From: Xestospongia bergquistia
Lineage: Eukaryota; Porifera; Demospongiae; Haplosclerida; Petrosiidae
Assembly (NCBI GenBank): GCA_963965975.1
Contig: OZ014411.1
Span: 17,698,446 to 17,762,445, forward strand
Direction: 5' to 3'
DNA length: 64,000 bases
This document shows positions 1 to 32,591 of the stretch, in pieces. The notes below the pieces were generated by a model that was not told where the DNA came from, made no database searches, and saw only the letters and a list, made by a program, of their open reading frames with translations. Both the position numbers and the translations under genes were made by a program. Every line of letters begins with the position of its first letter. The first letter of the stretch is position 1.

Positions 1-128
1 TCAATGATTGACCTTTATGAATACCAAATTATATTAACTTCCTGCTCAAGATGGATGCGTAGCTGCACAAGCGTTTGTTCTAAATTCGCTTGAGCGTTAT
101 TGATACCATTTTCGTATTTATGGTCACA
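1..128. mobile_element. Right half of a palindromic MITE upstream of BAF-A
   Basis: This is nearly identical to the right arm of the complete 252-bp palindromic element at 19147-19398. The terminal motif TGGTCACA followed by TA ends at 128. The left arm lies outside the window. It sits about 110 bp before the BAF start codon and so is probably part of the promoter region. Confidence 0.7.
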
Positions 129-241
129 TATAGAATAATTAATAATAGACCACGCCCATTATGATCAAGTTGCTTGCATTACCGGATGTTTTATCTGCTT
201 CGCTAGCTCAGCACGGCTGGTCGCTAACTTCAACCTATCAA

Positions 242-1053
242 ATGCCTTACAGATACGCAACGAAAAAATATAAAAAATTTCTAAAAGAACCTATGACCAA
301 GAAAGACGTCTTTGAATTACCTGGAATTGGTTCAAGAAATGGTGAAAGGCTGATAAGAGCAGGTTTTAACAATGCTGATGATGTGTTTGATAAATATCTT
401 GAATACAAAGGGGACAAATCGTCTTTTATTGTAAGTTAGCTAATATTGCTGCCTGACATAGAAGCAAAAGTACATATATAACAGTAACATTAACAGTATA
501 CTTTATTATAACAACAAACTTTCTGTAGTCAATTTTGATGTGGCTAGCCTGTGCATGCAAGATATGGTGGCAATACTATATACCAAGTAATTATCAGGAA
601 ATAGCCTACTCTAGTTTTTAATAAAATATTCTTACCTATACACTGCCTACTAGTCTAGCTAGCTAGACCCTCCTTTTTGATAAGCTGACGTGGGGTGGAA
701 GCGAAGGCTTACCGCAGCATTGGAATGTATGGAATGTGGGGCAGTACCGCAATGTTTACATAGTGATTATAAACTGTTATTACAATTGCCACGTGGACTT
801 ATATATGGAGGAACACTTGCAATTCAATTTGGATTAGAATGTCTTCCTTTTCTCTGGTGCTAGAGCTTTGTAAACGTTTATAGTAGGCCTTGCAAACATT
901 TGACCATATAAGACTTGGTGCAAAAACACTAACAATATTATAATTGTATTTATTCCTTTTTAGGATTGGTTCAAGAAAATGAATATTCGTCGGCAGTATG
1001 CTGAACAATGTTGGAAGGCATTTGATGATTGGAATGAGCAAAATACTGACTGA
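242..1053 (+). CDS. BANF1-like: Barrier-to-autointegration factor, copy A (two exons)
   Basis: Exons are 242-430 and 964-1053, with a GTAAGT donor at 431, a TTTTTAG acceptor at 963 and phase 0. They encode 92 aa, close to the usual 89-90 aa of BAF. Residues 16-20 carry the conserved EPM-type motif. Residues 28-42 (PGIGSRNGERLIRAGF) form the helix-hairpin-helix DNA-binding element, and exon 2 gives the C-terminal W/F-rich helices (DWFKKM, QCWKAFDDW). Family role: a small dimer that bridges double-stranded DNA, binds LEM-domain proteins and lamins, helps nuclear-envelope reassembly and can restrain foreign DNA. An upstream in-frame ATG at 161 is unlikely to be the start, because the duplicate has a 7-bp deletion there that throws that ATG out of frame, while the ATG at 242 is kept. 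Compared with copy B this protein is less basic (net about +4 against +7, counting K/R minus D/E), with N, D and L where B has K or R. Function beyond BAF homology is inferred. Confidence 0.88.
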
Positions 1054-1553
1054 CATTAAATTTACAAATTTAAATTCATTGCTGCACAGTCTTGTTATGC
1101 ACTATATTTTTTTTGCTACAGTTTGAGTAAAATTTGTTGTGTATGTCAGTACGGAAAATACAAGTATACAGAGTAAAGCTAAAAGCTGTATATGTAAACG
1201 TGTGTCAATATTATACATATCAGCTTTTTCTTAATTATTGTAGGTACAGTAACTCATTTTAATTGTATATATTAGGTAATGTCTTAAAGGCTGTTTAAGC
1301 ACTAGCTAGGTAGCATCTTTTTTATGTCTTTGGAAAAGATATTCTTGTTATAATTTTGCTTGATCTAGCTAGAGCAAGCTAGCCCCTCCTCCTTTTGGAT
1401 ATACTGACAGTCGAAGGACTGTACACCAACTAGTAGACCCAGTCCAGTAATACTACTAGTGTAAGATGAAATGACTGCAGAAATAATTATTATAAACTTA
1501 CTGGTATGTCATACTATTCTACATTCCTTTATCATTAGTTTGTATTTTGCTAG

Positions 1554-2033
1554 TTATGGAGCTATTACTGACACTATATTAGTACTGATGATAACACATT
1601 GATGTGTAATGTATCCTATTCCATATGTGATATTGAGATAGTCTACAGGAATATAGCTAGGTACACACCATAAGATAACAGCCCATATAGTAGACATCAA
1701 ACTGGATAGTGTACTAACTGGATCAGGATCTGAGTAAAAATATAATTGTTGTTCATTAGACAATGTTCTTACCAGTTCCAGTCTGTTCTTCAATATGATC
1801 ACTGAAGGGACATCTTCCAGTAGAGTTCACACTAGCTACACTCATGTTATATATGTTGCCAAATACTAGATCATTCATGACAATATATTGCACAGTACTA
1901 GTGAGGTTGTGTGTGATACTATTGTTACTGATGACAACAATACACTCAATAATTCTACTATTACATAGATGACAATCAATCTCTTCCCATGTGATTTTGT
2001 TGGATGTCAAACTAACAGATAAACCATGATCAA
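1554..2033 (-). CDS. FN3-domain protein fragment (two exons, 3' end of gene)
   Basis: Minus-strand exons are 2033-1773 and 1729-1554, separated by a 43-bp intron (GTAAGA donor, TTACTCAG acceptor) and joined in phase 1 into one open frame ending in TAA. Exon 1 encodes a fibronectin type III domain: a core tryptophan in KITWEEIDC and the family signature YNMSVASVNSTG in strands F-G. The second exon looks like part of another FN3 domain (WCVPSYIPVDYLNITYGIG). No transmembrane segment is obvious and the upstream exons are not clear. Such domains are common in extracellular adhesion or receptor proteins. The short intron supports real splicing, but the gene may be an incomplete duplicate. Confidence 0.6.
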
Positions 2034-2189
2034 CTAAGATGGTCCCATAGGTTCTAAAGTTATATTAAGTTTCTATAAAAGCTTTAAAGTATTAGTTACC
2101 ATTAGTACTGTTGTGATGCAATTAACATGATATTGAGTGTTTTCAAGTTTAGTAATGAATGAGATAAATGTTCAATTTTTTCATGAAAT

Positions 2190-2640
2190 TGCTAAAAGAA
2201 TTATCTTATATATAATGACCAATAATAGGCGGACATTAGAATATCTGACAAATGTTTGTATATTGATTACAATATTAGTTGGCACAGTATATCTTGATAG
2301 GTTCTGATTGATGTCAAAAGATGTTATCAGTCCCTTCTATGTCATCTCATTTTGACTATACCTTACTTTACCTGTTATGTCACATTGTATGTGTCACTAG
2401 TGATATTGATTACATATGCTTTAGCATCGTATTGAACAGATATGCAAATGTCATTGTGAGTCTGAATATAATATTCACTTAAAATTTATGACTAACTTCT
2501 TCCATAGCATTCCACAGAAAATATTATTATTCATGAGTAAAACACTCAAATTTGACTTTGTTAACAATGTTTCTATGAATGATATTTTTATTGATGAGGG
2601 CATCAATTACTTTACATATATACTTTTTTATACTTGTATT
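2190..2640. repeat. Old duplicate of 9870-10430, with an FN3 relic on the minus strand
   Basis: Runs such as ATTAGAATAnCTGACAA, GATGTCAAAAGATGTT and CCATAGCATTCCACAGAAAA recur at 9870-10430 in the same order, but much more diverged than the recent duplications. On the minus strand around 2452-2390 an FN3-like piece (ICISVQYDAKAYVINITSD) can be read. It parallels the exon at 10044-10191 and ends in a stop just before a GTAAAG donor-like site. Treated as a decayed exon. Confidence 0.5.
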
Positions 2641-3751
2641 GTAGCGTATGTTATATGCGTACTGAACTCGTGTTATACTCATGCTAATTATATCATCATA
2701 TGTCATTTCCAATCTCTTGTTTATATGAGTGTTACTTTGGGGCCAGATAGTACACGTCGAAGAACGGTCATGTTTGACTCGGTACTGAAGAATATTTATC
2801 TGTATCAAAATGATGTCATTGTCATATCATTTCTGTGGCGTATAAAATGTGATACACATCGAATTTACACTTTGATTCAGTTGTTCGTATCCCAGTATGA
2901 TACAGACTTTCACTGATTCAGACCGTACTGGGCTCGCATATGCATCAGGTATGAGATCAGATCTGTCACTGATTCAAGATGTTTGGGGATATTAGAAAAA
3001 ATATAAGTGTATACTTATCGCCTATTGCCTTTATATATGATATGATTCATGGTGTTAGAAAGTAGAGTATATGAACTTGAAGAATCAGAAACTTTTTTTG
3101 ATAGTTAAATAGAAAGGTCAAGAGCAACAGTAACTTGAATAGTATAAGTCTTGTAATTGCCTCTTTTTCAACAGGTATATATGCATTGTCAACTCTCTGA
3201 AGAAACACTTTTGTGAAAGAGGCAGAGAAAACACAATTCTGAGACTAAATCTGAAAATCTTGAAATAGAAAGCTAAAAAGTCAGATGTAGCATCTATTAA
3301 TATGTAGTGCTAATATTTCAGAAGATTAATCAGTTGGTGCTGGTTCTAGCACAAGTAGTTTAAGGTTCAAACATGAATTTCTATTTTACTTGCATCATGT
3401 GTATTTGTACATACAGTGAGGACAATAAAAAAAAATGATGTCAGCAAAGTGTATGTATAGATTATGTACTATACTCTGTAGCTGCTCCAGTAGCTATACT
3501 AGCTGGTGAACAAAGGGTTCATAACTCATTGGATTAGTTCCTGTTGCTGTATAGCTAGCATATATTTTCTTAGCAAGTGGCTCTTCAATAGACACTTGAA
3601 TACTACTTATATCATTGAATATTGTTGTCACAAGTACAATGTCAAATTACAAAGAGTACTTCAGCGTTCGAGAGTCAGTTTCCCTTGGTTCGAGTCCGTT
3701 CTATGAAGTTATATTGTCATCCTTATTGGGGAGATACCAGTACAAGCTTAG

Positions 3752-4183
3752 ATGTTCAAGTTTATTCTGGTGTTGAAAGCATCAAGATGTTTACTTCATT
3801 CTACAGTAGAAACAGCATCTCTGATGGTGAGATTATTACTCAAAGTTCAAGCCCTGAGAATATCTATTGCAATGATTAAATTTAAATGGGATGCCAAAGA
3901 TCAGCAATATCCCCATGATAGTAATCAAAATGGTCAACTTTTCTTTCGTGGTAACATCTTTTGTGATTTCGTTTGTACTTTCTATGGGAATAGGAGTACT
4001 TTGACTGTGGATCAGCGTTATTTTGGTGATAATATCAATCCAATTGAGTGGGAAGGGGCATATATCGAAATAAGGAAAGATTATGTCATGCCAACAAAAT
4101 CTATTAGTTGCTGTAGAATTCCAGAGTCTGAGTTTAAAGAAAGATTTGAAAATTTGTCCGTAGAAGCTAAGACATATTTATAA
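3752..4183 (+). CDS. Unrecognised open frame, probably not an intact gene
   Basis: I do not recognise this. The most protein-like part is the C-terminal ~100 residues from KFKWDAKDQ to EAKTYL, which is mixed in composition with several aromatic and cysteine residues. The N-terminal part overlaps another open frame (3622-3879) and reads like non-coding DNA. The duplicate at 23029-23427 has several amino-acid changes (including W to R and R to C) and a small indel that removes the last ~15 residues, so constraint appears weak. It could be a decayed exon cluster. Confidence 0.2.
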   Translation: MFKFILVLKASRCLLHSTVETASLMVRLLLKVQALRISIAMIKFKWDAKDQQYPHDSNQNGQLFFRGNIFCDFVCTFYGNRSTLTVDQRYFGDNINPIEWEGAYIEIRKDYVMPTKSISCCRIPESEFKERFENLSVEAKTYL

Positions 4184-4264
4184 GCAGTTGAATCAAGAAT
4201 TAAAGTGGGATTGAAGGAAAAGACAATCTCACCCCTGCCATCAGACTGAGATACCTGGAAAGAT

Positions 4265-4345
4265 ATGTAATTAGCACGAGTATAACATGAGTTTAGCATG
4301 CATATGTTATATGCATGCTGAACTAATGTTATACTCGTGCTAATT
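4265..4345. repeat. Near-perfect hairpin, arms about 37 bp
   Basis: The left arm ATTAGCACGAGTATAACAT and right arm ATGTTATACTCGTGCTAAT are complementary. The centre GCATGCATATGTTATATGCATGC is itself palindromic. Only the right arm survives in the duplicate (about 23549-23592), and a related right-arm sequence lies at 2640-2700. Likely the fold of a small palindromic transposon end. Confidence 0.65.
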
Positions 4346-4419
4346 ATATCATCATATATCATTTCCTGTGTCTTGTTTTAAGAGTGTTACTTTGGGGGCA
4401 GATAGTAGTTTAGTATTTT

Positions 4420-5164
4420 AAATGATACAACACTAATACCATATACTGATATACAAAATAATACAAACAATTCAGTTTGAGACGAGATGATCACAACACG
4501 AGGTACCAGTCTAGACTATATCTTAGTAACTTACTCTGTGCACTACATCACTCCTCCACCAGAGAGTAAAATGAACAATACAAATTATAAATCTAACCGA
4601 TCAGGCCAGTGTACATGACGACCAGAGCAAGTGATCGACACAGGGGCTGATGATATTGAAGTAGGGGATGAAGGTTGAGGGGTTGGTGCAAGGGGAAGTG
4701 GTTTGGTATGGGGTAGAGTCACACGAGTCTAAATGTGCTGCCTTTAAATGGTCGAGAGAAATAACTTTTTGTTGTCTGTTGACCTCTAGGGTGAAATGTT
4801 TGTCAGAATGTTTTAACACTTTATAAGGTCCATCATATGGAATCTGAAGTGGTTTTCATATGGCATCATGTGTCACAAATACATGAGTACAAGTACTGAG
4901 GTGATGACTAACATGAACTTTATCATAGGAGGAGTCCCCACGTGTTGGGACCACTTTAAGATTGGATATGGCAGCTTTTAGTTGAGAGACAAACTCTGCC
5001 AGGTTAGTCTTTGCTGTCTGCTCTGAAATGAAAAATTCACATATCACAAATGATTTTACCATCAGACATAGGGATAGGACAAGCCTTGAGAAGTAGTGTT
5101 GATGAAGACGTCTGCAGTTTGAAAAAATCAGGGTCTTGTTTTCGAGCTGCAGCCATCTCTTTAA
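4420..5164 (-). mobile_element. Ty3/gypsy retrotransposon pol relic (integrase C-terminus)
   Basis: The minus strand encodes the end of a gypsy polyprotein. It reads LAEFVSQLKAAISNLK, then HVSHHLSTCTHVFVTHDA, a stop codon, then IPYDGPYKVLKHSDKHFTL (the GPY/F module), then ISLDHLKAAHLDSC. This is the integrase C-terminal tail seen in many animal gypsy elements. A TGA interrupts it and the catalytic integrase core is missing, so the element is dead. In the third copy (54914-55754) the same relic starts with the RNase H-integrase linker (EMAAAQKQDPDFFKLQT) and jumps straight to the C-terminus, so it is an internally deleted derivative. The foldback element at 5165 is inserted in it. Confidence 0.85.
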
Positions 5165-6408
5165 GGTAAAAATATCTAAAATTTTTTTTTCAGCTTTTTT
5201 TGATGCAATCATGTAAAGATACATGTTCTAATAATTGATCATGCTTTAAAAAACTTTTTAAACCCTAGTACTTTGCAGAAATGTAGTTTGATTCCTTAAT
5301 ATCTGCAATGATTTGGAGACATCAAATAATAATATTAAAGAACCTAGAGAGCTGAAACTTTTGAAAATTAAAGATGAAGTCATTTACTACAATTATACGG
5401 ATGGATTTATTTCTACAGTAATATTTGACATTTTTACAAAACTATAAACCTTGCTTACTTTAATCACTATTATTATTACATGTTATACAAATCGTACAAA
5501 GAAATGCATCCGTAAAAGTACTAAAATTGATCATTTTCGTTCTTGAACTTGTCAGCAGGTTTTTACATTATCCATAGAATCAAAAATCACAACAACAGTA
5601 TCTAACAGTGCAAAAGTCGCCATCTTGATAATGAATGATCGATTTTCATTAATTAAAGGCAATGAATACACTTAGTGTCAGGTTATTGATAAGTGACTTT
5701 CGCGGGGTTAAAATAGTTAAATATATTATTACTATTTTTATTATTGTTGTTATTATTGTTATTAAAGCGTGATCTGCTTTGAGATGAAGGCACATAAAAC
5801 TACGAACAATAATAATAATAATAATAATAGTAATAATAATTAATACATTTTATTTAACCATTCTAACCCCGCGAAAGTCACTTATCAATAACCTGACACT
5901 AAGTGTATTCATTGCCTTTAATTAATGAAAATCGATTATTCATTATCAAGATGGCGAAATTTGCACTGTTAGATACTGTTGTTGTGATTTTTGATTCTAT
6001 GGATAATGTAACAACCTGCTGACAAGTTCAAGAACGAAAATGATGAATTTTTAGTACTTTTACGGATGCATTTCTTTGTACGATTTGTATAACATATAAT
6101 AATAATAGTGATTAAAGTAGGGAAGGTTTATAGCTTTGTAAAAATGTCAAATATTATTGTAGAAATAAATCCATCCGTATAATTGTAGTAATTGACTTCA
6201 TCTTTAATTTTCAAAAGTTTCAGCTCTCTAGGTTTTTTAATATTATTATTTGACGTCTCCAAAGCATTGCAGATATTAAGGAATCAAACTACATTTCTGC
6301 AAAGTACTAGGGTTTAAAAAAATTTTAAAGCATGATCAATTATTAGAACAAGTATCTTTACATGATTGTATCAAAAAAAGCTGAAAAAAAATTTCAGATA
6401 TTTTTACC
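5165..6408. mobile_element. Foldback (long inverted repeat) transposon, 1.24 kb
   Basis: The left arm (5165-5763) is the reverse complement of the right arm (5805-6408) with few mismatches. A 41-bp loop begins AAAGCGTGATCTGC. The arms start GGTAAAAATATCTRAAA and end TTTCAGATATTTTTACC, flanked by TTAA on both sides. Poly-AAT runs lie near the loop. No coding capacity is seen, so it must be non-autonomous. The target is the gypsy relic, whose unoccupied form is visible at 55655-55665. Confidence 0.88.
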
Positions 6409-6480
6409 TTAAAAATCCGTATAACCCGTTATATTGAAATTGGAATGTCCGTCTGAGGCTTCCGTATATTTTAATAAATA
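6409..6480. mobile_element. Fragment of MITE family M
   Basis: The run around 6417-6470 (GTTATATTGAAATTGGAATG, then CCGTCTGAGGCTTCCGT) is the reverse complement of the left end of the 357-bp element at 14498-14854. Only the terminal ~60 bp is present. Confidence 0.6.
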
Positions 6481-6570
6481 ATACAAGAGTTAGGGAGATT
6501 ACAAGAAGTGGTTATCTTACAGTAACAAGTAAATACTTTTACTAGTATAGTGATATGATGTCATATGTAG

Positions 6571-6719
6571 TCCCATCAGCTCCAGTATTCACTTCCTCTC
6601 TTCCTACTATGGTTAATAAGACAGCTACCACTATCACTATCAATTGGACACCTGTTCCATGTGATGCTGATGGATGTGTAATCAATGTTGCTAGTGACAG
6701 ACACACTGTGACACAACAG
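6571..6719 (+). CDS. Isolated FN3-domain exon
   Basis: An open exon of 149 bp lies between a TATGTAG acceptor and an ACAG/GTAAAG donor. It translates to PSAPVFTSSLPTMVNKTATT, then ITINWTPVPCDADGCVINVA. This is the A-C strand half of a fibronectin type III domain with the core tryptophan. The second half of the domain (Y-x-V-x-A-x-N) is not seen downstream, so this is an orphan exon or relic. Copies lie at 26333-26481, 32592-32740 and 56632-56780, with substitutions but no stops. It is paralogous to the minus-strand exon at 10044-10191. Confidence 0.5.
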
Positions 6720-6860
6720 GTAAAGGAAGGTAGTCATAATATTAATACAGTTTGTGTGTCACTTATGGATTATCTATGGGGCGCCATTTGTATCAAAAAT
6801 TTCAAAATTTTCATAATATAATAATGAAAATGAGCGCATTTCCTTGTTTAATTAATGGTA

Positions 6861-7352
6861 GAATCTGTTAATAGAGTTGACATGTCTAAGTGTGAGTGAG
6901 TAGAAAATTGTTTAAATGATTGTATTTATTCATGTGTACTTCTTCAGAGTCTCACTTTGTCCCCTCCATTAGAACCAGTAAGTCAGTAAACAATAAGTTT
7001 ACCAAATGATCAAATTGACTTCAAATCATTGTGACTGCAAATTCATAAATTGTAATTGCATTTGTTTACTAATTATTTAGTATATCCTGACTGTTAAACC
7101 ACCTCACTGTTTTGTCAATAAGAGCTAATAATGTTTTTCATCAAATATATGCAGGATCTGTTAGTCGTAGTGATGTGACTAATGGTGAGCATGTTCATTT
7201 TAATGATTTATATTTTATACTCAATTTCATTTATTGACACTATTTCAACATTTCCTTTGAGTGCCAGTAAAACCAGTAAGTAGACAGCAAATATAATGTG
7301 TTTCATCTTATATATAATATGGGATCTGTCATTTGTAAAGACCTGTCTAATA
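6861..7352 (+). other. Micro-exon-like 30-bp units, first cluster
   Basis: Units b1 (7155-7184) and b2 (7323-7352) are 30 bp long, begin GATCTGT and end at a GTGAG donor-like site; b1 follows AG. A decayed unit lies at 6861-6890. A second class, a1 (6948-6977), is also 30 bp, between TTCTTCAG and GTAAGT, and reads SLTLSPPLEP. A shorter a2-like piece lies at about 7261-7275. Phases of a1 and b1 do not join with the FN3 exon in one frame, so functional splicing is unproven. Confidence 0.45.
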
Positions 7353-7520
7353 GTGAGTGTGTGTGTGAATAGGTTCAAGTCAAACAATACACTATACAGA
7401 TTTTCCCATTATTTAGATGGTTTTCCAATCCAATACAAGTAGTATGACCCAATTAAACTTGAGAAAGCTGTTGAACCTATTACAAATGTGGTAATGTCCT
7501 GTCATCAAACTAATTAGAGT

Positions 7521-9140
7521 ATGGTATCCCTTGTTCTGCTCATACTATGTAGGATGTCTTCATCTCTTGGGAGCTTGAGTGGACCTAGAAGATATCTAGC
7601 TGTTGATGAACAACTTGTTCATTTCATAATATACCCTACTGAAATTGGTTATGGCTATACTGTCTGTGAAATCATGAGTTTTGTTAAGGAATGTATGAAT
7701 CACAAAGACATAAAAATTAGAGTCCAGTGAGATACATATGTCATCTATATTGAAGTTTTGTTCTGGGTGATTTTCTAGATCATTGTTTAAAGTGCATCCT
7801 AGTACATAGAAAGAATGCTGAAGAACTTTAGGTTGTGAAGAATTAGAGTACAAATAAGATTAAGATTCTTAATACAATATTTGGTTCCATCAAATTAAAC
7901 TTCTCTGATCATCCATGAAACATAACAAGGCTTCTTTAAAAATTTGTGCTAGGGATCAGGAATACTCAAGTTATACTTCTAGTCGTGCAAAAGTTGAAAT
8001 CACAGTTTTATCATGTTGTGGTGCTGCAGGTTATACAATCCTACATTTTGTAATTTTTGATCACAAATCTCATAAACCAGACCTTACTTTGGTGAACCAT
8101 CGGGAACCACGTTTGGCTTGTTGACTCTGGTTGAATGGACACCAAACTCTTTCATTTATAATCTCAAACCAACTTTCTAGCTTCTTCATCTGTTAGACCA
8201 CTTCTTATAATGGATGGACATATTGTTCCCATTTCAGTTCTGATACAATTCAAATAGCAACTGAGGAAGGTGTGATCATGTTTTTCTGCCCCCTAATACA
8301 ACAGATCACACAACCACTTGACAAAGGTTGTTTGGGACCTTTAAAAGTCGTTTTGGAAGTGTCAGCTTTATATTAAAGTTAATCTGGTAAAGTGGCTACT
8401 TGCTACCAATTTTCTGAATTATTTGGGAAAGCCTGCATTAAAGTTATGACAACGACAAAACTGATGTCATACTTATGTTGGGTTCAGAAGCATTGGGATT
8501 TATCATTTCAATCCCAAACCATGTCACTACTTCCATCTTCAAAGTCCCCAGTACCATCTTGGTTCAAAAATCTATCAAAATATACAGGACTAAATTTTTT
8601 CTACTTTTTAGTCTCTTACCTAGTTGTTACATACAATGTCAAGAAAGTCCATTACCAAGATGTTGGGGCAATCTCTTAATAAGTATCTTTGTCATGTCAG
8701 ATTTTAAGTTCTTGCAACAGTCCTGTGCCAAGGTATTATGTTAGTTGTTGAAATAGCCCCATGCCAGGTATTTTTGGTAGCCCTGGAAAAAAATCATTGT
8801 GAATAATGACTATTGCCTTTGGATGACTCACACAATACTACCATACTTGAAGAAATGTGTCAGTTCAGTTAATGGTATGAAGAAGATTGTGATCTGAAAG
8901 GATGAGTGCTATGACGAACGTAAAAATGATGGTGATTATGATGAATAGCTTCCTAAACATGTAACTGATGCTGAGATTTGAAAGCAAGCACTTAAAAACC
9001 TTGGCAAAAGTATTGATTAGCAAGGAAAATATTGAGTTTATTTTATGATAAATTTACAGAAGAAAAAAGAACTAGATGAAAGGGATGAAACGAGAAAGAG
9101 GTATAAGGCAAAAGACAAACAAACCTTCAAAACAAGATAT
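7521..9140 (+). pseudogene. Degraded pogo/Tigger/jerky-like DDE transposase
   Basis: Pieces in changing frames follow the order of the DDE_1 (CENP-B/Tigger) transposase family. First comes a helix-turn-helix region (GPRRYLAVDEQLVHFIIYP, EIGYGYTVCEIMSFV). Next is SSRAKVEITVLSCCGAAGYT with FVIFDHKSHKPDLTL (catalytic-core strands), then MDGH (around the second catalytic aspartate, near 8210). QPLDKGCLGPLK then lies near 8310-8350, followed by SGKVATCYQFSELFGKACIK. Many stops and frameshifts separate them. A lysine/glutamate-rich tail is visible around 9050-9130. Copies: 27299-28925, 33558-35184 and 57596-58950, the last with an internal deletion of about 180 bp. Terminal repeats were not identified. 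Confidence 0.8.
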
Positions 9141-9207
9141 AATCATTTCCTATTCGGAAACGAAAGGTCACATTGAAGTGTTGATGTATGTTTTGTTAGT
9201 GTCTTAG

Positions 9208-9372
9208 GATCTGTTAAAAGAAAAGATGTCTCCAAGAGTGAGTGAGTAACTTAAACAATTTTGTTATTGTATTTTGTTTGTAGAGACTACTACAGTTTCT
9301 CACTTGGTTGATACCAAAACCAGTCATCACTTATATAATAAGGATATTTGATCACAAATGATGTGCCTAATG
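9208..9372 (+). other. Micro-exon-like 30-bp units, second cluster
   Basis: Units b3 (9208-9237) and b4 (9343-9372) are again exactly 30 bp, preceded by AG (CTTAG, ATAAG) and followed by GTGAGT. Between them a3 (9284-9322) follows TTTGTAG. In the frame that is open in all b units the peptides are of the form (G)SVxxxDVxN: SVSRSDVTN, SVICKDLSN, SVKRKDVSK, YLITNDVPN. They flank the dead transposase on its other side, suggesting the transposon landed inside a row of repeated small exons. Confidence 0.45.
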
Positions 9373-9654
9373 GTGAGTATATTTCATTTGATGAGTTAAA
9401 TTTTTATACTTATAGACCTTTCATTTGAGTGCGAATATGTAGATTAAATGAAAATAAGTGAGTTTTTTTAGATAAGTATCTACTTTACTTTCTATTATAC
9501 CAAAGGTATTAATGGAGGAACTAGTTAGAGATTCACTTCTTTCCTCATATTCATTTGACTATAAGAAAAGCAAATTCAATGACATTGAATAAATCAGGGG
9601 TCTTACCTGCAAAGATTGAAGAATCTCACATCAAGATGTTAATTAAAACATATC

Positions 9655-9679
9655 AGAGAGAGAGAGAGAGAGAGAGAGA
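9655..9679. repeat. (GA)n microsatellite
   Basis: A run of AG dinucleotides whose length differs among copies: shorter at about 29434 and 35693, interrupted at about 59480. No gene is seen in the surrounding 9373-10043 stretch. Confidence 0.9.
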
Positions 9680-10043
9680 ATACAGTTGAGTTTGATACTA
9701 GTCTCATTTAAAATAAATGTCATTACACTATATAGATGGAGAGACTGGGAAATAGAAATGAGTAAGCTTTGTTAGGATGAACAATTAACTTTCACATACC
9801 TCACAATTTCACTGTAGTTCACTCCTTTATACATTGCTATACAGGTAACATTAACTGACACTCCCAAAATTGCTAAAAAATTAGCTTATATTGACCAATG
9901 CTTAATGGATATTAGAATACCTGACAATGTTTGTACACTGATTACAGTACTAGTACATCTTAATAGGCTCTGACTGTGATGTCAAAAGATGTTGCTGGTA
10001 TCAGTCTCTTCAGTGTCATCTCATTTTGACTATCTCTCTTTAC

Positions 10044-10191
10044 CTGTCATGTCGAAGTATGTGTCACTAGTGGCATTGCCTATGCATGTTTCAGCATCAT
10101 ATGGAACAGGTATCCAAATGTCAATATGAGTCTGAATAAATCTCTTCAAATTTCTTACTTTACCTTCAATTAATAGTACATCATATAATAC
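10044..10191 (-). CDS. FN3-like exon relic, minus strand
   Basis: A 148-bp open exon runs between a TTTTTATTTCAG acceptor and an ACAG/GTAAAG donor on the minus strand. Its core FIQTHIDIWIPVPYDAETCI with SDTYFDMTG matches the plus-strand FN3 exon at 6571-6719 (ITINWTPVPCDADGCVIN). The tryptophan and VPxDA turn are kept. Copies lie at 29814-29961, 36073-36220 and 59869-60016. It is probably a half-domain of a receptor-like gene that also contained the EGF pieces further upstream on this strand. Function unknown. Confidence 0.4.
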
Positions 10192-10930
10192 CTGAAATAA
10201 AAAGACAAATAACACAACTACAATATCACTCTTCATTTACCAATATGAGTACTCAAATGATCAAATTCTTCCATAGCATTCCACAGAAAATAACATGATT
10301 CATGACAAAAACACTCAAACTTGAGTTTGTTAATTAAATAATAAAAAAGTTTCTACTCATAATATTAATAGAATTTTTATTGATGAGGTCATAAATTACT
10401 TTACATTATATAATTTCTTATGCATGTATCATTAGAATGTTTTATTAGAAGAATTGACATAATAGTGTATATCAACTGGTAAGTTTTTACATGTGAACAC
10501 TGTCTATAATAGCATAATTTTATCACACATCACCCCATGGATATTACGTTGAGGTCTGATAATCTAGTGGTTGCACCAGTTACTTAAAGACACTTAATAA
10601 TTGATTTATCATGAACTAATACAGTAATACCAGGTAAAGAAAATGAATTATATAAAAAGAAAGGAACAAAGCTGGATTACATGATGGACATTGTTCTTTA
10701 TAGCACATCTCTTATTTTGTAGTATCAAGTATCTAAATAAAATAGTTAAATTATAGTGAGTTATTTAGTTATTTCATTGGAGTATTAAGTATTAAGAAGC
10801 CAGCAGTAGTCTTTACTTTAGTGGTAAGAGCTATGTAAATGTCTCTACAATAATATCATTATAAATCTTACACTTTATTTAGGGTATTCACTATAATGTG
10901 ACTGTGTTCTTTTATAACTTCATAACTTAC

Positions 10931-11278
10931 TTGTCCAGTACGATATTCACATCCAGGTTTACAATATTATGGTATATAAACATGTAAAAGAGCATCATTC
11001 ATGTATATGATATACAATATGACTTAAAGATTTGTACTGTATCTCATATATGATTATGAGATAGTCTACAGAAATGTAACGACTCTTACTATAAAGGTGT
11101 GTATTCTGGCAACTATTAACTTGTAAACTGTACAAAGAAATCATTTTAGGATTTATAGGTTACTGATTTGAACTGATACTGTGCACCATTGACACATCCT
11201 GGAGAACACACTGCTACTGTACAATTGTAACCAACCAACCACTCCTACATGTACAAGTGTCAGCTACTGTACAGAAAC
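10931..11278 (-). pseudogene. EGF-like domain relics, minus strand
   Basis: Minus-strand reading from 11278 gives CTVADTCTCRSGW, then after a one-base deletion GYNCTVAVCSPGCVNGAQ. This is the cysteine spacing of tenascin-type EGF repeats. A second piece, CKPGCEYRTGQ, ends at a GTAAGT donor (boundary at 10931). The frameshift is present in all copies (30701-31048, 36960-37307, 60756-61103), so the loss predates the duplications. Likely part of the same decayed receptor gene as the FN3 exon at 10044-10191. Confidence 0.6.
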
Positions 11279-11959
11279 CATAAGTTAGACTGCAATAAGT
11301 TTGACATTTAACTGAGTAAACAAAAGAACAATAGTGTAATGTTGGCTCAAATTTTGAGCTACAGAGTATAGATTACTGAGCACATGTGTACTTACTATAA
11401 AATCTATAAGAATCAGACCTGGGTGTTTGGTAGATTAGTGTTTTAATATTTATTTTTCTTTCACCAAACAAAATTATAGTTCGTTAGCTTTACACATGCT
11501 TTGAATACCATTAAAAGTTTAACCAAATATGGTCTACAGAAATGTATAGCATTCACAACTAATAATACCGGGATAGTGGGAAATATTGATGATCATAAAA
11601 TTTGACAGAAGCACATAAGTTAGCTTAGCATTGTTATTACTGGTCATTATACCCTCATACTAACAAAGCAAGCTATAGCTTTTAGTAATAGGAGAAGCAA
11701 ATATCGTAGATGTCTTGCAGTCTTCATTTTATGGGTGTGGTTAATACAAAATTATTGCTGATGATATATAAATATTGCAAACTTACTTTGATTCACTAAA
11801 CTGCCAAACTAAATTCATCACTAATATTTCTTATTGTACAGTTAGTTCAAAATGGAAATCATAATCATGGCCTGAAACTATTAAAGATTATTATATATAC
11901 ACACATGTACATGAGGTAACATAATGATAACATAAGTTATTACTTTTATCTCTTACTAT

Positions 11960-12668
11960 TTATAATTCAATAGGAAATTTGTTCTTATTTTTTAGAAAAC
12001 AGTCCAAGCAATATCTTCTAGTATAAATATACTGGAATGCTACAAAAGAGAACCTATTATAGGTTTCTAATCACAATTAAGACATTTCATTTAATATAAT
12101 GTATAGATTCACTAGATATAAAACCCGCCAATGAGTTTTAAGACAAAATGACATTATATTAATCTCCTATAAAAGCTACATTCAAATATACTATAACTGT
12201 ACACTGACCTTTATAAGGTTGATACGAGGCCAAATTAACATCTTGAATAGATGATCCAACTAATTACTATATAGTGGGTTTGTTGGTAATTTTGTAACAC
12301 AAGACAAGTGTATTAAAACTGTAGTTGTATAATGACTTTAAACTGATCTACCAGTTATCTTGAAACAATCACTGCTGTAATTTAACTCTGTTATTAAAGG
12401 AAGGATTTTTCCCTACAACAGCATTCTATATTCTCTAGTAAATGTAACATCCTCTCACAACATTTTCAATCTGTACTTCATTAAAGTATGTGTGGTTATT
12501 AAATTGTTACAATTTCATCAAAGAGATTTGACTCTACATATATTATATTATGGACTTACTTTACTAACATAGACAATTCTTTTACACACTACACAGTGTG
12601 ATCCTAGAATTAGTGGCTTAAACATCTCAGAGAAAGGGTCTCTACCAATGATTGTATCTTCTAAATAC
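11960..12668 (-). CDS. CDPF1-like: CDPF1-like cysteine-rich DPF-motif protein (3' exons)
   Basis: Two minus-strand exons: 12668-12560 (GTTACAG acceptor, GTAAGT donor) and 12031-11960 (CCAG acceptor, TAA stop), joined in phase 0. The first encodes YLEDTIIGRDPFSEMFKPL with the DPF motif, then LGSHCVVCKRIVYVSK. The second encodes YIYTRRYCLDCFLKNKNKFP and IEL-stop. Order and spacing match the C-terminal half of CDPF1 (DPF, then LGSxCxxC, then a KRFCLPC-type knuckle, then a short basic tail). About three residues are missing at the exon junction relative to the family. CDPF1 function is poorly known. The 5' exon carrying the first cysteine knuckle was not found with certainty; a weak candidate is 12960-12890 ending at GTAAGT, but its phase does not fit. 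Copies: 37989-38697 and 61786-62470. Confidence 0.65.
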
Positions 12669-13371
12669 CTGTAACATCAATGAAGGAAGTTACAATAGGA
12701 ATATAATTTAAGCAGGACAAAAATTGTTATAATGGCAACATTGAAATATTTTACAAAATGTATTTTGTACCATGACAATGGCTTCGTGAACCCTTAACAC
12801 TAGTAATTTACAACAAAGCAGACACTTTTTGTGTGTTCTTTTAATATTTTATGATGAACAAAGCAAGACACTTACTTACTACAATATTAAATACAACAGC
12901 GATCATTTTTAGAAATGATGGTTCTGTATATGAAATTTCATTTTTATTGAATCACCATATTACTCCTAAACTTCCTTATTCTAATTCAAAATGAAATAAA
13001 TAGTCAAAAATAGATTTACAACCAACACCTAATTTTATGAATTTTGGCTCACACATGATCCATGTGGCATGCAAGACTGCAGGTCTGGAGTCTGTGAGAA
13101 TAGTTCTCATTTATTCCAACATTATTTAGTGTCTCAATTAGTCTACAGTGAGATAGCATTTATTCTATGTGATAAATACTATTATAATATACAAAAAAAA
13201 TGTCCATAAAGTCAGTTTTGTTTCAATCCTTACATGAATCCTCCCTTTACTTACACTAATCCATTTGAAAATGGACAAATACGTCCAAAATCATATCTAA
13301 CATCAAAAAGACCATACTTATGGCAAAGAAAAGTTCACCTTTTTTTCAAACGCCTTTCTCAAAGTTGCCAT

Positions 13372-13504
13372 TCGAGTACATTTTAAGCCACACCTCTATT
13401 ACGTGACAGGATGATGACATTGCATGCTTCGCTGGGGAGGAAAGTCTATAAAGTGAGCTACTGGGCAAAGGTCTATGTTACACTGCCACTACTCTCAGAA
13501 AGTA
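13372..13504. promoter_or_regulatory. Promoter of the DUF1917 gene, with TATA box
   Basis: TATAAAG lies at 13447-13453, about 50 bp before the ATG at 13505, leaving room for a short 5' UTR. An ACGTGAC element (CRE/E-box-like) lies near 13401. This is the best-conserved non-coding stretch among the three copies (13380-13505, about 39410-39530, about 63210-63327). CDPF1-like exons lie on the opposite strand upstream, so it could serve both directions. Confidence 0.5.
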
Positions 13505-16490
13505 ATGGCTGAAGCAACTACTATGACAGAAGAGACAGTTGAAGGTAAATAACAATTGGTAAACTAGAGTCAGTGAGCAAAGACATTTGTACAGAAGTTG
13601 AGGACTATTCTTATTTCCTATTTCTTCCGTGCACCTTCGCGTATTTGGAAATTTAATCCAGTTGGTAGGGAAGCCAAGAGTAGACATTACAATATACAAC
13701 CCAAATCAAAATTAACTGGAAACAACACTTTGATGCTTGATTCCAAGAGATGGATCATGTTCCGATTAAATAAGCCTAATAAAAATTAGAAATGGGTCAT
13801 ATGCCAAGAATGGAATAAGGAATTAGAACTCACCAAATTGGGGAATTTTAAAATATGCAAAGGTGTGTGGAAGTAATAGGAAATAGGAATTTAATTATCC
13901 ATTCTCAGCTTCTGTAAAGTGTATAGATTATCCTTATTTTAATGTGGAATTAATATTTAACATCAGTTCATAGTAAATCATTGGTATTTTAAAGTTAAAG
14001 CATTTGTTATATGCTATATATATAGCTAATGTTGTGAGTAGAATGATTTTGTTTACAAAAATTGGAAGAGGAATGCCATACTCAATGCAAAATTAATATA
14101 ATTAGGTTCTGAGGTTTACATTTTAGGGTCTAGAGATTAGTGGAAATTTCACAATAATGTACAGTATTCTGAGCCTTTTATCTAGATGCAGCCACTTGTT
14201 CATAACGTTATGATTTACTCAACAAATAAACTGTGCAGCCACACCTATTTATAATTAATAACAGCGAATAATACTAGAGAAAATGTATAGACTATATGTA
14301 TCTTGCTCTCTGGAGAATATGAGACCTTTTGTATATACAGTCAGTATTAATGAAATTATTCTGAGTATGATCTCTTAAAACAAAGCTTACAAGGCAATAT
14401 ATATGTTTATGTTAAAGACTAGTTTATTATAAACTAAAATATGTATGGAATGATTAATAATTGAGAAATAGCAATAAATGTTATATCTAAAGTATATGAA
14501 AGCGTCAGACAGACATTCCAATTCCTATTTCCAATTTCAATATAACGGGGTTATACAGAGTTTTAATGTCCATTCTCGGCTTCTCTAAATAATCGAACTA
14601 CAATATACAACCAAAGTCAGGGACCTAACTTAACTGGAAACATCTCGCTGACGCTCCATTTTAAGAGACAGTTCATGGTACTCACGCTCCGCGTTTTATT
14701 AACAAGAAAAGCCTAGAAATGGTGCACATGCCAAAATTGGAATTAAGAATAACAAATTAGACTCATCAAATGGATCGATAATTGGAGTTTTAAAATACGC
14801 TAGGGTGCGCGGAAGAAACAAGAAAAAGGAATTGGAATGTCTGTCCGCGGCTTCCGTAAAAGTACATTTCAGTCATCCTTTTGTTACATTTTAGCACTGG
14901 TTTGAATAAAGAAATGTTTATTTTCTAAAATTCCTTTCTTTGGGTTAGTATCATTTATTCCTATATGAAAACAACGTGATAATTTGACTCAAACAAGGAG
15001 CTACAGTTGACTCTACAAGGCTAGCCTTTGATTTCTAATTCTTTATAAACTCAACAATCACTGGTATTGATAATAAGTTTAAGCTCTGGTTACTAGTTCA
15101 GATAGATTGAACAAGTTTAAACACACCAACTAGAGTGAAAAAAAACAAGCAGAAAGAACTTTTTGTAGTAGTGAAATCAGAGCTATAAGTAGACCTTATA
15201 GAGTCAACTGTAGCTCCTTATTTTTATGTACTCTTTACAGGGTTGTATGTCTCAAGAATGATGCCAATTTTTCAATAGGAATAAATAGTACTATATCCAA
15301 AGGAAACAATTTTTTAAAAATGAATGTTTCTCTATTCAAACCTGTACTAAAACACAACAACATGGAGTCTGAAATGTGCTCCAGATGTAATAATTGTATA
15401 GTTTAATCCTTATGATAAACTAGGCTATTGGTTACCTTACAAAATGGTATCTATGACAACAGTAGCATTACAGAAACAGGTGTGGCTGCATAAGATCTCT
15501 TATTTAACACCACAATGTTATCTGCTTTCTTTATATAATGCAACAGAATACTATTCACAGTGTTGTTCTGAGGGTATAGAAAGTCTTAAAAAGCCTACAG
15601 AAATCTATGATCACTTTTGGGTTTATGTAAGGGTTCCAACACCAGACAAGGAGCTAGATATTCTTGGTAAATGGCTCGTTTTTAAAGACTATGATAAACT
15701 TGATGAGGTATGGGAAAAGATTCGAACTGCTATTGTCACTAATAACTTACAAGGTTGTGTAAGTGCCAACTGTTCCACTATGAGATATAATCCTACAGGA
15801 GGAGGTCCTGGGCCCTGTACATATGGTGTCATATGTGTTTATACAGAGGAGCATAATATGGATAAAATTGGTTTCAAACTTATTGAAATAGTACAACAGG
15901 ATATCAAGTACAAAACTGATAGTGATACTCTGGCAGGAAAGTATGCACACACAGGTTCCGGAAAAGTTACCATCAAAACAATTTTCTGGAACAATGGGAG
16001 ACCATCCTTTGTATGCAAGGATAAGCCATGCTATGGAACATCCAGATACAAGGAGGATATATGGCATCTTAATGTTGTTGAGGCTCCTAAAGAATTTGCT
16101 CCAAAAGAAATCTTTGGAAGGTGGATTCTAGAGCTAGAAAATGAAGACCTGACTGAGTTATGGCACATTTTAAAGGAGGAAATTGAATGTAAGACTAAGA
16201 ATTTTGGAGTTGCTAGAATGGTGTGTCCTCCTAAAAGAAACCGAAGATCACCAGAAGAAGATGCTGTTTTTCTGTTGTATGTCGACAAGGAATGGAAAGA
16301 TTTAGTTGGTTATAAATTAATTGATTTAGTGGAAACAGATATAGTGTTTGAACAGAAAAGGAGAAGCGATTCTGATGACAGGAGATCTCATCATTATGAG
16401 ACTCTATACTGGAACAATGGTGAACCAGCTTATGAGATTGTAAAACGACCTGGAATTACCAAAAATTGGAGGACTGGAGAAGATATTTAA
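13505..16490 (+). CDS. Two-repeat DUF1917 (Bles03/C11orf68-like) protein
   Basis: Exon 1 (13505-13544, ATG after a TATA box, donor GTAAAT) joins in phase 1 to exon 2 (15424-16490, acceptor AAACTAG), giving 368 aa. The protein has two related modules. Repeat 1 (about residues 78-208) has GKWLVF, DKLDEVWEKI, VICVYTEEHN and WNNGRPSF. Repeat 2 (about 235-350) has FGRWILELEN, LWHILKEEI, VFLLYV and WNNGEPAYE. This pattern resembles the DUF1917/Bles03 family, whose known structure is eIF4E-like. Cytosolic RNA or cap-related function is a family-level guess. Exon 2 alone could start at ATG 15444; the phase match, with GYWLPYK conserved in other copies, supports the spliced form. Intron 1 (1.9 kb) hosts two MITEs. 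A possible poly(A) signal AATAAA lies at 16692. Confidence 0.72.
13591..13915. mobile_element. MITE family M, element M1, in intron 1
   Basis: Terminal inverted repeats start ACAGAAGTTGAG and end CTCAGCTTCTGT. They continue as TTATTTCCTATTTCTTCCG, matched inversely by GGAAGTAATAGGAAATAGG. The interior is related to M2 at 14498-14854. Copies at 39617-39941 and 63413-63736. No coding capacity. Confidence 0.7.
14498..14854. mobile_element. MITE family M, element M2, in intron 1
   Basis: The ends GACAGACATTCCAATTCC and GGAATTGGAATGTCTGTC are inverted repeats about 310 bp apart. The interior shares CTACAATATACAACC and AACTGGAAACA with M1, so both belong to one non-autonomous family. Copy at 40524-40880. 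A terminal fragment sits at 6409-6480 and its equivalents. Confidence 0.75.
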
Positions 16491-17705
16491 TATCCTGTAT
16501 GTGTATAATTATATCAGCGTCTGTATTTAGAAAATTATTTTTGTTTTAAAAATTAATTTTACACAATGTATACTACTGCAGTTATTCAATTATGTAACAG
16601 TAATAACTCTTATAGAGATGACATTGAGTTTCTTATAAATAGTAGATTGTGTTATAGGTTACTACTAGTAACCTGCAACTCCTAATTATTAAATAAATAT
16701 TTCTTTATTGATATTGAAGTTGTTACTGCCATAGTTTTTGATTTATGACTGTTTTGAGATTTAGCCATAACTTAAGTAGAATATTCCTATATACATTAAC
16801 AAGATATTGTATAATTAGAAAAAAAAGAAATTGGTACTTAAGGTTTATCATTTTGAATCAAAACATGTCTTATATAATTATTACATTCTTTTGAAATATT
16901 TTAACTGATCAATTGTCTATCTCAATGAATAGTTAGTTAACATTTTCACTTCACACAGAAACCAATTAATACAGTTGTAACATTGTTATGGATCATGTAT
17001 AAAATAGTGCTCTTACTCCATTATTGAATGTAACAATGAAAACTATGAATGGAATGAAATGTACATACTCATCATTGATGTACATTACTGTAATATTGAT
17101 CAAGATAATCTTAGGACAATATATTTAATAAATATAATTTTGTATACTTGCTAACAAAACCTATATAGTACATTAATATGTTGTCATTATATTACTTAAT
17201 TTACATGTGCGTGTATATATGATTGTTACAGTCTACATAAAATGTGTCTTGAGATTTACACTTTGTACTTACTGTACACTGGGAAATATTGGTGAGTCAT
17301 TTAATTTGATATTTTAGTGACTCAAAATAAGCTAGTGGTTGATTACAAATGACAATGATATACTGACTGATGAGATGTTTGTCAAATGAAATGTTTGTTA
17401 ATATTTCTCACTAATATGGTATTGTTATTTGTGAATGTTATAGTTGTATTTAAACTCATAATATATGAGTGAAAAGTCTTAGATGTAAGAGTTAGTCTGT
17501 ATAGTGACGAACTTACCTTGATTATTGAGTTTAAAGATTGTGGTATGTGTATATATGTTGACCTAAATAATAGAGATTTGACTATATATCAAAAGTACCT
17601 ATATTCCTTAAACATAATACTCAATTTCTATCTAACTAAACAGTCTTTTACTTTAGACTTCTCAATGAGAATATTTGCTTCATACAACTGCCACAACAAA
17701 GTATT
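16491..17705. other. 3' flank of the DUF1917 gene, no gene seen
   Basis: AT-rich non-coding sequence. It is conserved in the duplicate at 42518-43739 with several percent differences and indels. It contains the likely 3' UTR to about 16710. Nothing else is supported. Confidence 0.6.
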
Positions 17706-19146
17706 ATACCCTTGATATTGTGGCTACTATATATGGATGTCCATACAGCCTTAAGTTTAATGAATTTTTAAGAAATTTTATTTACTTGTACATTATAATA
17801 CAGACTTACTTTACCAATACAGACATACTTTTACATACTACTTAGTGTGATTCTAGAATAAGTAGATTAAACATCTCAGAGAAAGGTCTCTACAATGAAT
17901 GTATCTTCTAAGAAAGCTATAAATGTTTAAGTATTGATATAATTTAGGGACAAAACTTGGTTGTATAGACTGGCATTGTAGAATTGAAACATTTTATAAA
18001 ATGTATGTCATATCATGATATTGACCTCATGTAACACTAACATTATTAATGTACTATGTGTACAAAGCAGAGGCTTTTGTCTGTTCCTTTGATATGAGAT
18101 AAATAAAAAATTAGAATTTATACTGTAACAGCAGAGACAGAAACATTTGCTTTTGTGGTCTTGGACATTAAATTTGATATTTAATAAAGAATCATGCAGT
18201 ACCATCAGAAATAAACAACTTTAGAAATATTGTTCAGGCCTTTTCTTAAGGTGTTTAAAGTAATGTGTCAGTAGTATTTGATCCTGTCTGTTACTCGGGC
18301 ACCATGAAACTGGATAGCCCTTGCTGCATTCATCAACAATAATTTCTGTGGTCAACTGAAAATTGTATCCAGTTGTCTTGTGTGTTCAGCCAACACTAAT
18401 GATCTTGTTTTCAAATTCTTTCATCATTGCACACTGCAATGGTGCCTTAAGAATATTAATCAGTACAAAGTCATTATTACAGGCAGTCAGTTGTTGGTTT
18501 ATGTCCTTGAGGTTTGTAAAGAAATTGGATTATCAGCACCTTTTGCCTCATTCCTCCACCCATAGTACTACATTCATTGAGTTCTTAGGATGACATTTCA
18601 CTCCCTTGAGACCATGTGCTTTCTCTATGTTGACTATGTCATTTCTAGTTACTAAATGTATTCTGTTAATTTTAGTTGACACACTGTTTCTGATGTCATC
18701 TAAAATTCTGTTAATTAAGAATACCTTCAGATAATTTACCAGCAATTTCATCATGTTTTAATTTGATTGTGATATTTGTAAGTGTCCAAGTTGTTTGTCA
18801 TGATCATATTGTTTGAGTGTAATTAATTTAGTGTGCTTGTCACTTGTAAATATAATAGTTAAAGTTGTTGTACAATGAATGTTTATCTGTTGTGATTTCA
18901 GACTTCTCATGCCAGTTGTTTCATTAACAAAAAGTTATAATATTGACAGTAACAATTCTTACTGCTTTATTCATGTTTGTTTATATATTCTTGTAGATGA
19001 ATATGAAGGATTGCCTGAAGAGTTGCATTTACAAAGTAAGTGTTTCCCATATTTGTTAATCCTGAAGGAAGACTTCAGTCCATCACAGCTCTCAGTAATT
19101 CAAACATATCATGTACATTATGTTTTATTATTCATTTAAAATGATA
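17706..19146. other. Unique spacer with a CDPF1-exon relic and a candidate small exon
   Basis: This stretch is absent from the other copies. On the minus strand 17915-17809 is a diverged copy of the CDPF1 DPF exon (LEDTFI kept, then a frameshift before DPF), so it is a pseudogene fragment of an older duplication. On the plus strand 18997-19035 is a 39-bp open segment between TATTCTTGTAG and GTAAGT encoding an acidic peptide (DEYEGLPEELHLQ). It could be an internal exon of an unknown gene, but no partners were found. Confidence 0.45.
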
Positions 19147-19398
19147 TGTGACCATAAATACGAAAATGGTACCTAACGTGCAAACAAATTTCGATTGAAC
19201 GCTTGCATATAAACTGTTGCTATGCAGCCATCTTAAACAAGAAGTTATTAATATTCAGTATGTGACAAGATCAATGATTGACCTTTATGAATACCAAATT
19301 ATATTAACTTCCTGCTCAAGATGGATGCGTAGCTGCACAAGCGTTTGTTCTAAATTCGCTTGAGCGTTATTGATACCATTTTCGTATTTATGGTCACA
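19147..19398. mobile_element. Palindromic MITE, 252 bp, upstream of BAF-B
   Basis: The terminal inverted repeat TGTGACCATAAATACGAAAA, continuing TGGTA, is matched at the other end by TTTTCGTATTTATGGTCACA. TA lies on both sides. Similarity between arms continues inward at a lower level (CATCTTAAACAAGAAGTTA against TAACTTCCTGCTCAAGATG), so the whole element is a decayed palindrome. A TA target suggests a Tc1/mariner-type mobiliser (inference). It ends 106 bp before the BAF-B start codon. Confidence 0.8.
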
Positions 19399-19504
19399 TA
19401 TAGAATAATTAATAATAGACCACGCCCATTATGATCAAGTTGCTTGCATTATTTTATCTGCTTCGCTAGCTCAGCACGGCTGGTCGCTAACTTCAACCTA
19501 TCAA

Positions 19505-20315
19505 ATGTCTTACAAATACGCAACGAAAAAATATAAAAAATTTGTAAAAGAACCTATGACCAAGAAAAAAGTCTTTGACATACCTGGAATTGGTTCAAGA
19601 AATGGTGAAAGGCTGATAAAAGCAGGTTATAAAAAAGCTGATAAAGTGTTTAAGAAATATCGTGAATACGACGAGGACAAATCGTCTTTTATTGTAAGTT
19701 AGCTAATATTGCTGCCTGACATAGAAGCAAAAGTACATTATAACAGTAACATTAACAGTATACTTCATTATAACAACAAACTTTCTGTAGTCAATTTTGA
19801 TGTGGCTAGCCTGTGCATGCAAGATATGGTGGCAATACTATATACCAAGTAATTATCAGGAAATAGCCTACTCTAGTTTTTAATAAAATATTCTTACCTA
19901 TACACTGCCTACTAGTCTAGCTAGCTAGACCCTCCTTTTTGATAAGCTGACGTGGGGTGGAAGCGAAAGCTTACTGCCGCATTGGAATGTATGGAATGTG
20001 GGGCAGTACCGCAATGTTTACATAGTGATTATAAACTGTTATTACAATTGCCACGTGGACTTATATATGGATGAACACTTGCAATTCAATTTGGATTAGA
20101 CTGTCTTCCTTTTCTCTGGTGCTAGAGCTTTGTAAACGTTTATAGTAGGCCTTGCAAACATTTGGCCATATAAGACTTGGTGCAAAAACACTAACAATAT
20201 TATAATTGTATTTATTCCTTTTTAGGATTGGTTCAAGAAAATGAATATTCGTCAGCAGTATGCTGAACAATGTTGGGATGCATTTGATGATTGGAATGAG
20301 CAAAATACTGACTGA
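19505..20315 (+). CDS. BANF1-like: Barrier-to-autointegration factor, copy B (two exons)
   Basis: Exons 19505-19693 and 20226-20315 (GTAAGT donor, TTTTTAG acceptor, phase 0) encode 92 aa with the same BAF architecture as copy A: EPM motif at 16-18, helix-hairpin-helix PGIGSRNGERLIKAGY, and C-terminal aromatic helices. Against copy A there are 15 changed codons in exon 1 and two in exon 2, all non-synonymous. D22, N43, N44, D47 and D50 of A are lysines here, L53 is arginine, K56 and G57 are D and E, and R73 and K81 are Q and D. The changes surround rather than break the hairpin motif, so both copies look functional. The protein is more basic (net about +7), as might suit stronger DNA contact; that is inference. 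Upstream lies the palindromic MITE, downstream the FN3 fragment in the opposite direction. Confidence 0.9.
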
Positions 20316-26169: not shown

Positions 26170-26332
26170 TTAAAACTCCGTATAACCCCGTTATATTGAA
26201 ATTGGAATGTCCGTCTGAGGCTTCCGTATATTTTAATAAATAATACAAGAGTTAGGGAGATTACTAGAAATGGTTATCCTACAGTAACAAGTAAATACTT
26301 TTACTAGTATAGTGATATGATGTCATATGTAG

Positions 26333-26481
26333 TCCTATCAGCTCCAGTATTCACTTTCTCTCTTCCTACTATGGTCAATAAGACAGCTACCACTATCACT
26401 ATCAGTTGGACACCTGTTCCATGTGATGCTGATGGATGTGTAATCAATGTTGCTAGTGACAGACACACTGTGACACAACAG
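26333..26481 (+). CDS. Isolated FN3-domain exon, copy 2
   Basis: Same as 6571-6719, with S in place of N before WTPVP and L for P at the start. Open, same splice sites. No partner exon found. Confidence 0.45.
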
Positions 26482-32428: not shown

Positions 32429-32591
32429 TTAAAACTCCGTATAACCCCGTTATATTGAAATTGGAATGTCCGTCTGAGGCTTCCGTATATTTTAATAAAT
32501 AATACAAGAGTTAGGGAGATTACTAGAAATGGTTATCCTACAGTAACAAGTAAATACTTTTACTAGTATAGTGATATGATGTCATATGTAG

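Follow-up and report, generated by a model that had tools for sequence, protein, structure and literature searches.

Tandem duplicates of the BAF (BANF1) gene in the sponge Xestospongia bergquistia have accumulated amino-acid changes severalfold faster than their flanks have diverged. The duplicates lie in and around a stretch of 64,000 nucleotides (the window), positions 17,698,446 to 17,762,445 of contig C1 (OZ014411.1), in a genome of 146 Mb in 21 contigs. The excess arose after copies A, B and C had split and is present on both the A/B and the C lineages, and the synonymous sites, intron and flanks of the copies are near background. BAF is a very conserved animal protein that links chromosomes to one another and to the nuclear envelope and keeps invading DNA in check. 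Positive selection on the sponge copies is well supported, from a small sample of changes. We consider it somewhat probable that the selection was for different dimer or partner preferences, acting through divergence of surface charge.

The array is composed of three open copies (A, B and C) and two broken pieces (D and E), and its units of ~19 kb also bear Bles03-like genes. On the forward strand of the window, copy B has exon 1 at 242–430 (63 codons, with the GIG hairpin and 15 of the 17 codons that differ from copy C), a GT...AG intron of phase 0 at 431–963, and exon 2 with the stop codon at 964–1053, in which codons 73 and 81 differ from copy C. Copy C, on the same strand, has exon 1 at 19505–19693, its intron at 19694–20225 and exon 2 with the stop at 20226–20315. 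Copy A, the third copy with an open spliced frame, lies to the left of the window at C1:17,679,596, and the broken pieces flank the array further out, D at ~C1:17,648,205 and E at ~C1:17,767,515. The ordinary BAF gene of this genome, on contig C8 (183-bp exon 1, 248-bp intron, 90-bp exon 2), has the intron at the same position and in the same phase, and copy C matches it at 40% over codons 6–52. The SAM_BAF profile (PF02961; cut-off 25 bits) matched copy B with 72.5 and copy C with 72.6 bits, residues 6–89 aligning to profile positions 3–87 of 88 (family match 4e-20). The GIG hairpin, at codons 28–30, is the same in A, B, C, D and E. An in-frame ATG is present 81 bases 5' of the presumed start in copies A and B (window 161–241); a 7-bp indel disrupts this upstream extension in copy C.

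Copies B and C differ at 22 nucleotides in 17 codons, and every difference changes the amino acid (nonsynonymous differences, Nd = 22 over N = 227.3 sites; synonymous differences, Sd = 0 over S = 48.7 sites). An earlier note on this DNA had given the same count; synonymous differences were looked for on realignment and none was found. Between A and C, Nd was 22.5 and Sd was 1.5. Exon 1 differs between B and C at 19 of 189 positions, in agreement with the ~10% noted earlier, and exon 2 at 3 of 90 (stop counted). The intron, for which about 7–8 differences had been reported, has 7 substitutions in 532 bases plus one 1-bp indel. The ~240 bp upstream had been said to differ by little beyond one 7-bp indel, and the 241 bp upstream of copy B (window 1–241, forward strand) indeed show that indel and no substitution against copy C. 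The setting itself is less conserved than the ~1.5% proposed, with 182 differences in 8321 aligned background positions (~2.2%). Against this background the exons were in excess (Fisher 6.8e-7), as were the nonsynonymous sites (22/227, p = 2e-8). When a 189-bp window was slid along the 8.7-kb three-copy alignment, exon 1 was the most divergent (19 differences for B–C, 20 for A–C); the top B–C background window had 16, at the end of an alignment block, and 14 once that end was dropped.

The absence of synonymous differences between B and C is not itself surprising, because the flank rate predicts only 1.07 of them. The surprise is the excess of nonsynonymous differences, 22 seen compared to ~5 expected. 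The chance probability of a zero synonymous count ranged from 0.0007 to 0.037 with the choice of kappa and with the unit counted (nucleotides or codons). Taking the Poisson upper limit of 3 over 48.7 sites, B–C synonymous divergence is below ~6%, compared to 9.7% for nonsynonymous sites. We used a codon model written for the purpose, with kappa fixed at 3 and a star tree. For B–C, omega = 1 was rejected against free omega (2dlnL = 9.2, p = 0.0012); as Sd = 0, the omega estimate reached its upper bound. For A, B and C jointly, omega was 6.2 and omega = 1 was again rejected (p = 0.009). Tying the neutral rate to flank divergence gave omega of 4.9 (p = 3e-9), and tying it to the intron gave 8.2, in fixed-rate tests that ignore overdispersion.

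The Bles03-like gene (PF08939) at window positions 15444–16490, on the forward strand ~3 kb upstream of copy C and in the same tandem unit, served as an in-unit control. Between B and C it showed 36.5 nonsynonymous and 10.5 synonymous differences in 339 codons. The BAF-like copies had 0 synonymous and 22 nonsynonymous differences, compared to 10 and 37 for Bles03 (Fisher p = 0.024). Among 15 pairs of 6 Bles03 copies, pN/pS ranged from 0.44 to 1.05; these were 6 of 8 copies, with J (5 stops) and H, which has an open frame of 291 codons at its site, left out. The neighbouring Bles03 genes therefore have an ordinary synonymous content.

The direction of change was polarised over codons 12–54, using D and E as outgroups. 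Six sites were derived on A/B and seven on C, and every one of these changes the amino acid; of the remainder, one was derived in A alone and one was ambiguous. Codon 22 split both ways, from E to D on A/B and from E to K on C. At codon 50 (human G47), D and E have GGT, A and B have GAT, and C has AAG. On the simplest reading the glycine was lost first, and two more changes then followed in C. At codon 81, A and C share GAT and B has AAG, probably through two changes in B. Codon models, flank and intron controls, the Bles03 neighbours, and changes on both lineages together support positive selection on the BAF-like copies.

Could copy C have been converted from a third, diverged BAF locus? Six C sites agree with D and E where A/B differ, as such a conversion would allow. 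At the 16 sites that set D and E apart from A, B and C, C shares none (0/16); taken with the polarised changes, this makes it improbable that a D/E-like donor overwrote C, and indicates that both lineages moved. Synonymous changes would also be expected from a diverged donor. The family search of the assembly (7 matches) and the protein search (10 matches) hit only exons of A, B, C, D, E and the ordinary BAF gene, and no further BAF locus beyond the array and C8 was found in the assembly by family and protein searches. We rejected this conversion on the assembly-wide protein search and the 0/16 shared sites, and regard it as extremely unlikely. A DNA search of the genome gave at least 67 matches (40 of 87 candidates were scored). 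Those outside the array fell mostly in the intron part of the query (498–749), with a single match at the intron start (C1:17475518, window 428–531) and a single match in the 3' flank (C1:17847549). The intron segment at window 647–898 recurs at dozens of sites on many contigs, indicating that the intron contains a dispersed repeat.

Copies A and B are near-identical from –2500 to 963 (8/3463, relative to copy B) and then differ at 73 of 3205 positions from 1054 to 4260, so that a boundary of conversion or recombination seems to lie near exon 2. Exon 2 itself differs between A and B at 8 of 90 positions compared to the 73/3205 of the downstream flank (p = 0.0014), a second and weaker local excess that takes in one synonymous change and changes at or after the early stop of A. 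Such apparent activity of conversion or recombination would be in keeping with exons that diverged long ago, the intron, flanks and synonymous sites having been homogenised by gene conversion and the amino-acid differences held by selection. Yet this would need tracts of only a few bases between changed codons, B–C intron divergence is not significantly under background (7/532, p = 0.22), and selection would be required all the same. We therefore consider ancient divergence of the exons very unlikely.

Piece D carries indels relative to A, B and C and has AT instead of GT at its splice donor, and no exon 2 was matched for it. Piece E has a 5' end that could not be aligned and an in-frame stop where exon 1 would go on. 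Both look dead; we can only infer this, because open frames of 82 and 91 codons still cross D and E. Relaxed constraint or decay, with nonsynonymous changes in excess by chance, would suit these two pieces and the shorter copy A. Relaxation alone does not exceed the neutral rate, however, and nonsynonymous divergence is 9.7% versus ~2.2% for the background. The frame, the splice sites and GIG are also kept in all three of A, B and C, and we judge an origin by decay to be highly unlikely.

The changed codons were mapped onto human BAF through sequence alignment, with chain numbering shifted by four to place GIG at 25–27; residue assignments below rest on this alignment. They correspond to human V11, P19, S22, L23, E36, F39, D40, K41, V44, G47, L50, K53, K54, A71 and G79, and two further changed codons lie in the N-terminal tail. 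Nine of the 17 fall within codons 39–57, around G47 and the LEM contacts (P = 0.001, for a region picked after the data had been seen). The earlier note had placed the changes around, not in, the DNA-binding motif. This holds for GIG itself, which is unchanged, but codons 22, 25 and 26 come just before it. Five changes reverse charge between D and K, at codons 22, 47, 50, 56 and 81, which happened in 0.055% of 20,000 simulated runs (P = 0.00055). Exon 1 carries a net charge of +6 in A, +5 in B and +11 in C.

In human BAF, G47E is reported to break dimerisation and LEM binding (PMC10668030). At this position copies A and B have D, copy C has K, and pieces D and E have G. LEM contacts of human BAF are given as R37, F39, Q48, V51, L52, L58, E61 and W62 in another report (PMC6459885). 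In A, B and C, five of these eight residues (R37, Q48, V51, L52 and L58) are replaced, by A, K, E, Y and S respectively; E61 is D, F39 is F or Y, and W62 is kept. One B–C change falls on a LEM contact, F39 (F to Y), and several others fall between LEM contacts. Since LEM-contact residues are replaced, and judging by residues only, we describe the copies as BAF-derived and not as working LEM partners. The same report lists K6, G25, G27, V29 and L30 as DNA contacts, aided by S4, Q5, A71 and R75, and states that R75E reduces DNA and emerin binding and increases histone binding. The array copies retain K6 and carry T for S4, K for Q5, R for V29, N for L30 and R or Q for A71; all three have E for R75. 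B and C differ at only one of these nine positions, A71 (codon 73, R to Q). The sole structure model (the exon-1 frame P0001 with P0097 and P0098, which came from protein searches and were matched by eye to copies A, D and E) was poor, with a predicted local distance difference test (pLDDT) score of 51.9, and was not used. The changes appear to gather round the dimer/LEM side more than at the DNA contacts, and re-specification of the dimer or partner therefore fits at least as well as an arms race. A search for coevolving LEM partners gave 6 LEM-domain matches on 4 contigs, two of them on C3 (6 kb apart) and two on C10; there was no expansion near the array, and this candidate was rejected.

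We believe the likeliest mechanism to be as follows. A BAF gene with its intron was duplicated and then amplified in the ~19-kb tandem units. The proteins would still fold as BAF and retain the GIG DNA clamp; most known LEM-contact residues having apparently been lost, the copies would be poor LEM partners. Selection may then have remodelled the charge round the dimer junction and LEM groove, favouring copies with differing dimer or partner preferences. The new BAF-like clamps would in this way be stopped from interfering with one another and with ordinary BAF. An antagonist from outside may have driven this, or may have had no part in it. More tentatively, the array may be a set of clamps in which recurrent selection switched the polarity of the dimer/partner surface, giving separate or complementary dimers (A/B acidic and C basic at G47) in genetic conflict, either genome defence or germ-line rivalry between paralogues or chromosomes.

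Several observations weigh against selection for dimer or partner preference. The sample is small (22 changes), and the pair was picked out for looking extreme. Between A and B there are 5 nonsynonymous and 1 synonymous differences, so that pN is about equal to pS. The background is overdispersed relative to Poisson, and under a negative binomial fitted to 44 background windows P(19 or more) is 0.001; because of this overdispersion the rate excess alone is far less extreme than the Fisher value. Polarisation is limited to 43 codons because D and E are fragments. Copy A, with its stop four residues early, may be decaying. The earlier note had counted at least ten charge-altering changes; the count of 10 of 17 stands but is not unusual (simulated neutral mean 6.5, P = 0.074), the five reversals being the part that is. 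Finally, the dimer/LEM assignment depends on alignment with a distant relative.

The earlier note had attributed the pattern to an arms race with transposons or DNA viruses. Of this proposal, positive selection is supported, but there is no direct evidence for the driver and no antagonist was identified. BAF-like clamps active against transposons or viruses could change their surface to escape an antagonist or to track a foreign nucleoprotein target. Nonsynonymous change on both lineages would accord with this, as would the turnover of tandem copies with broken D and E, and the higher rate of change in A–B exon 2 than in its downstream flank, though one of those changes is synonymous and others are at or after the early stop of A. 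BAF is also named a cellular antiviral factor that is inactivated by a vaccinia kinase (PMC6395007). On the other side, B and C differ at only one of the nine DNA-contact positions, and among 159 pattern matches from one scan of viral contigs there was no confirmed relative of the copies. We regard the arms race as possible and do not expect it to be the cause. A viral BAF relative was likewise set aside as a candidate, as none was confirmed in that single scan.

The array copies resemble BAF/BANF1 in the family match, the GIG hairpin, the lysine matching K6, and the intron position and phase. They differ from it in their tandem arrangement, in their fast amino-acid change, in the replacement of five of the eight LEM-contact residues, and in the residues that they have at the human R75 (E) and G47 (D or K) positions. 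The nearest known case, by analogy, appears to be cichlid banf2w. According to PMC8268354, Banf2 regulates Banf1 and can form both homodimers and heterodimers, and banf2w is an additional BAF paralogue, concordant with female determination, that carries three non-conservative substitutions. BANF2/BAF-L and banf2w share with the array duplicated BAF genes, amino-acid-changing differences and copy-number variation. The likeness is one of description; banf2w is a fish gene with three such substitutions, whereas the array has 17 changed codons. A second parallel may be duplicated homomers that escape cross-assembly between paralogues, as treated in PMC6711710 and PMC11066126; the array copies likewise change charge round the dimer junction, as far as sequence can tell. 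We found no report of positive selection in BAF paralogues, nor of such an array, among the open-licence papers listed.

BAF paralogues that change faster than neutral beside an ordinary BAF constitute a natural series of charge variants near the dimer/LEM surface. With the array one could test whether BAF-type clamps can be drawn into genetic conflict, and how a dimeric protein that is essential gives rise to duplicates that do not poison the original. In two protein searches for BAF relatives in other species, the only hits (1 of 1 and 3 of 9 candidates, all on a contig of 1,531,029 bases) look like parts of the array itself. For absence from other species this is weak evidence, because the gene is short and intron-split; the comparison leaves aside two further members of the P0001 cluster.

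The Bles03-like genes are themselves amplified, with at least 33 domain matches genome-wide and clusters on C1 near 14.08–14.20, 16.28–16.36 and 17.43–17.87 Mb. Besides the control gene, the window contains copies at 41471–42514 and ~44188–45060. In the aligned frame, Bles03 copies A and B are interrupted by a stop at codon 39. A 6.26-kb segment is duplicated in tandem at ~24931–37450, its two copies differing by 1 mismatch in 6261 bases; this would be either a very recent event or an assembly duplication. Tandem repeat finding showed a diverged satellite-like array at 45000–55000, with periods near 85, 107 and 168–179 bp. Compared by eye, its consensus units switch orientation: those from ~51.1 kb onward are the reverse complement of those up to ~50.7 kb.

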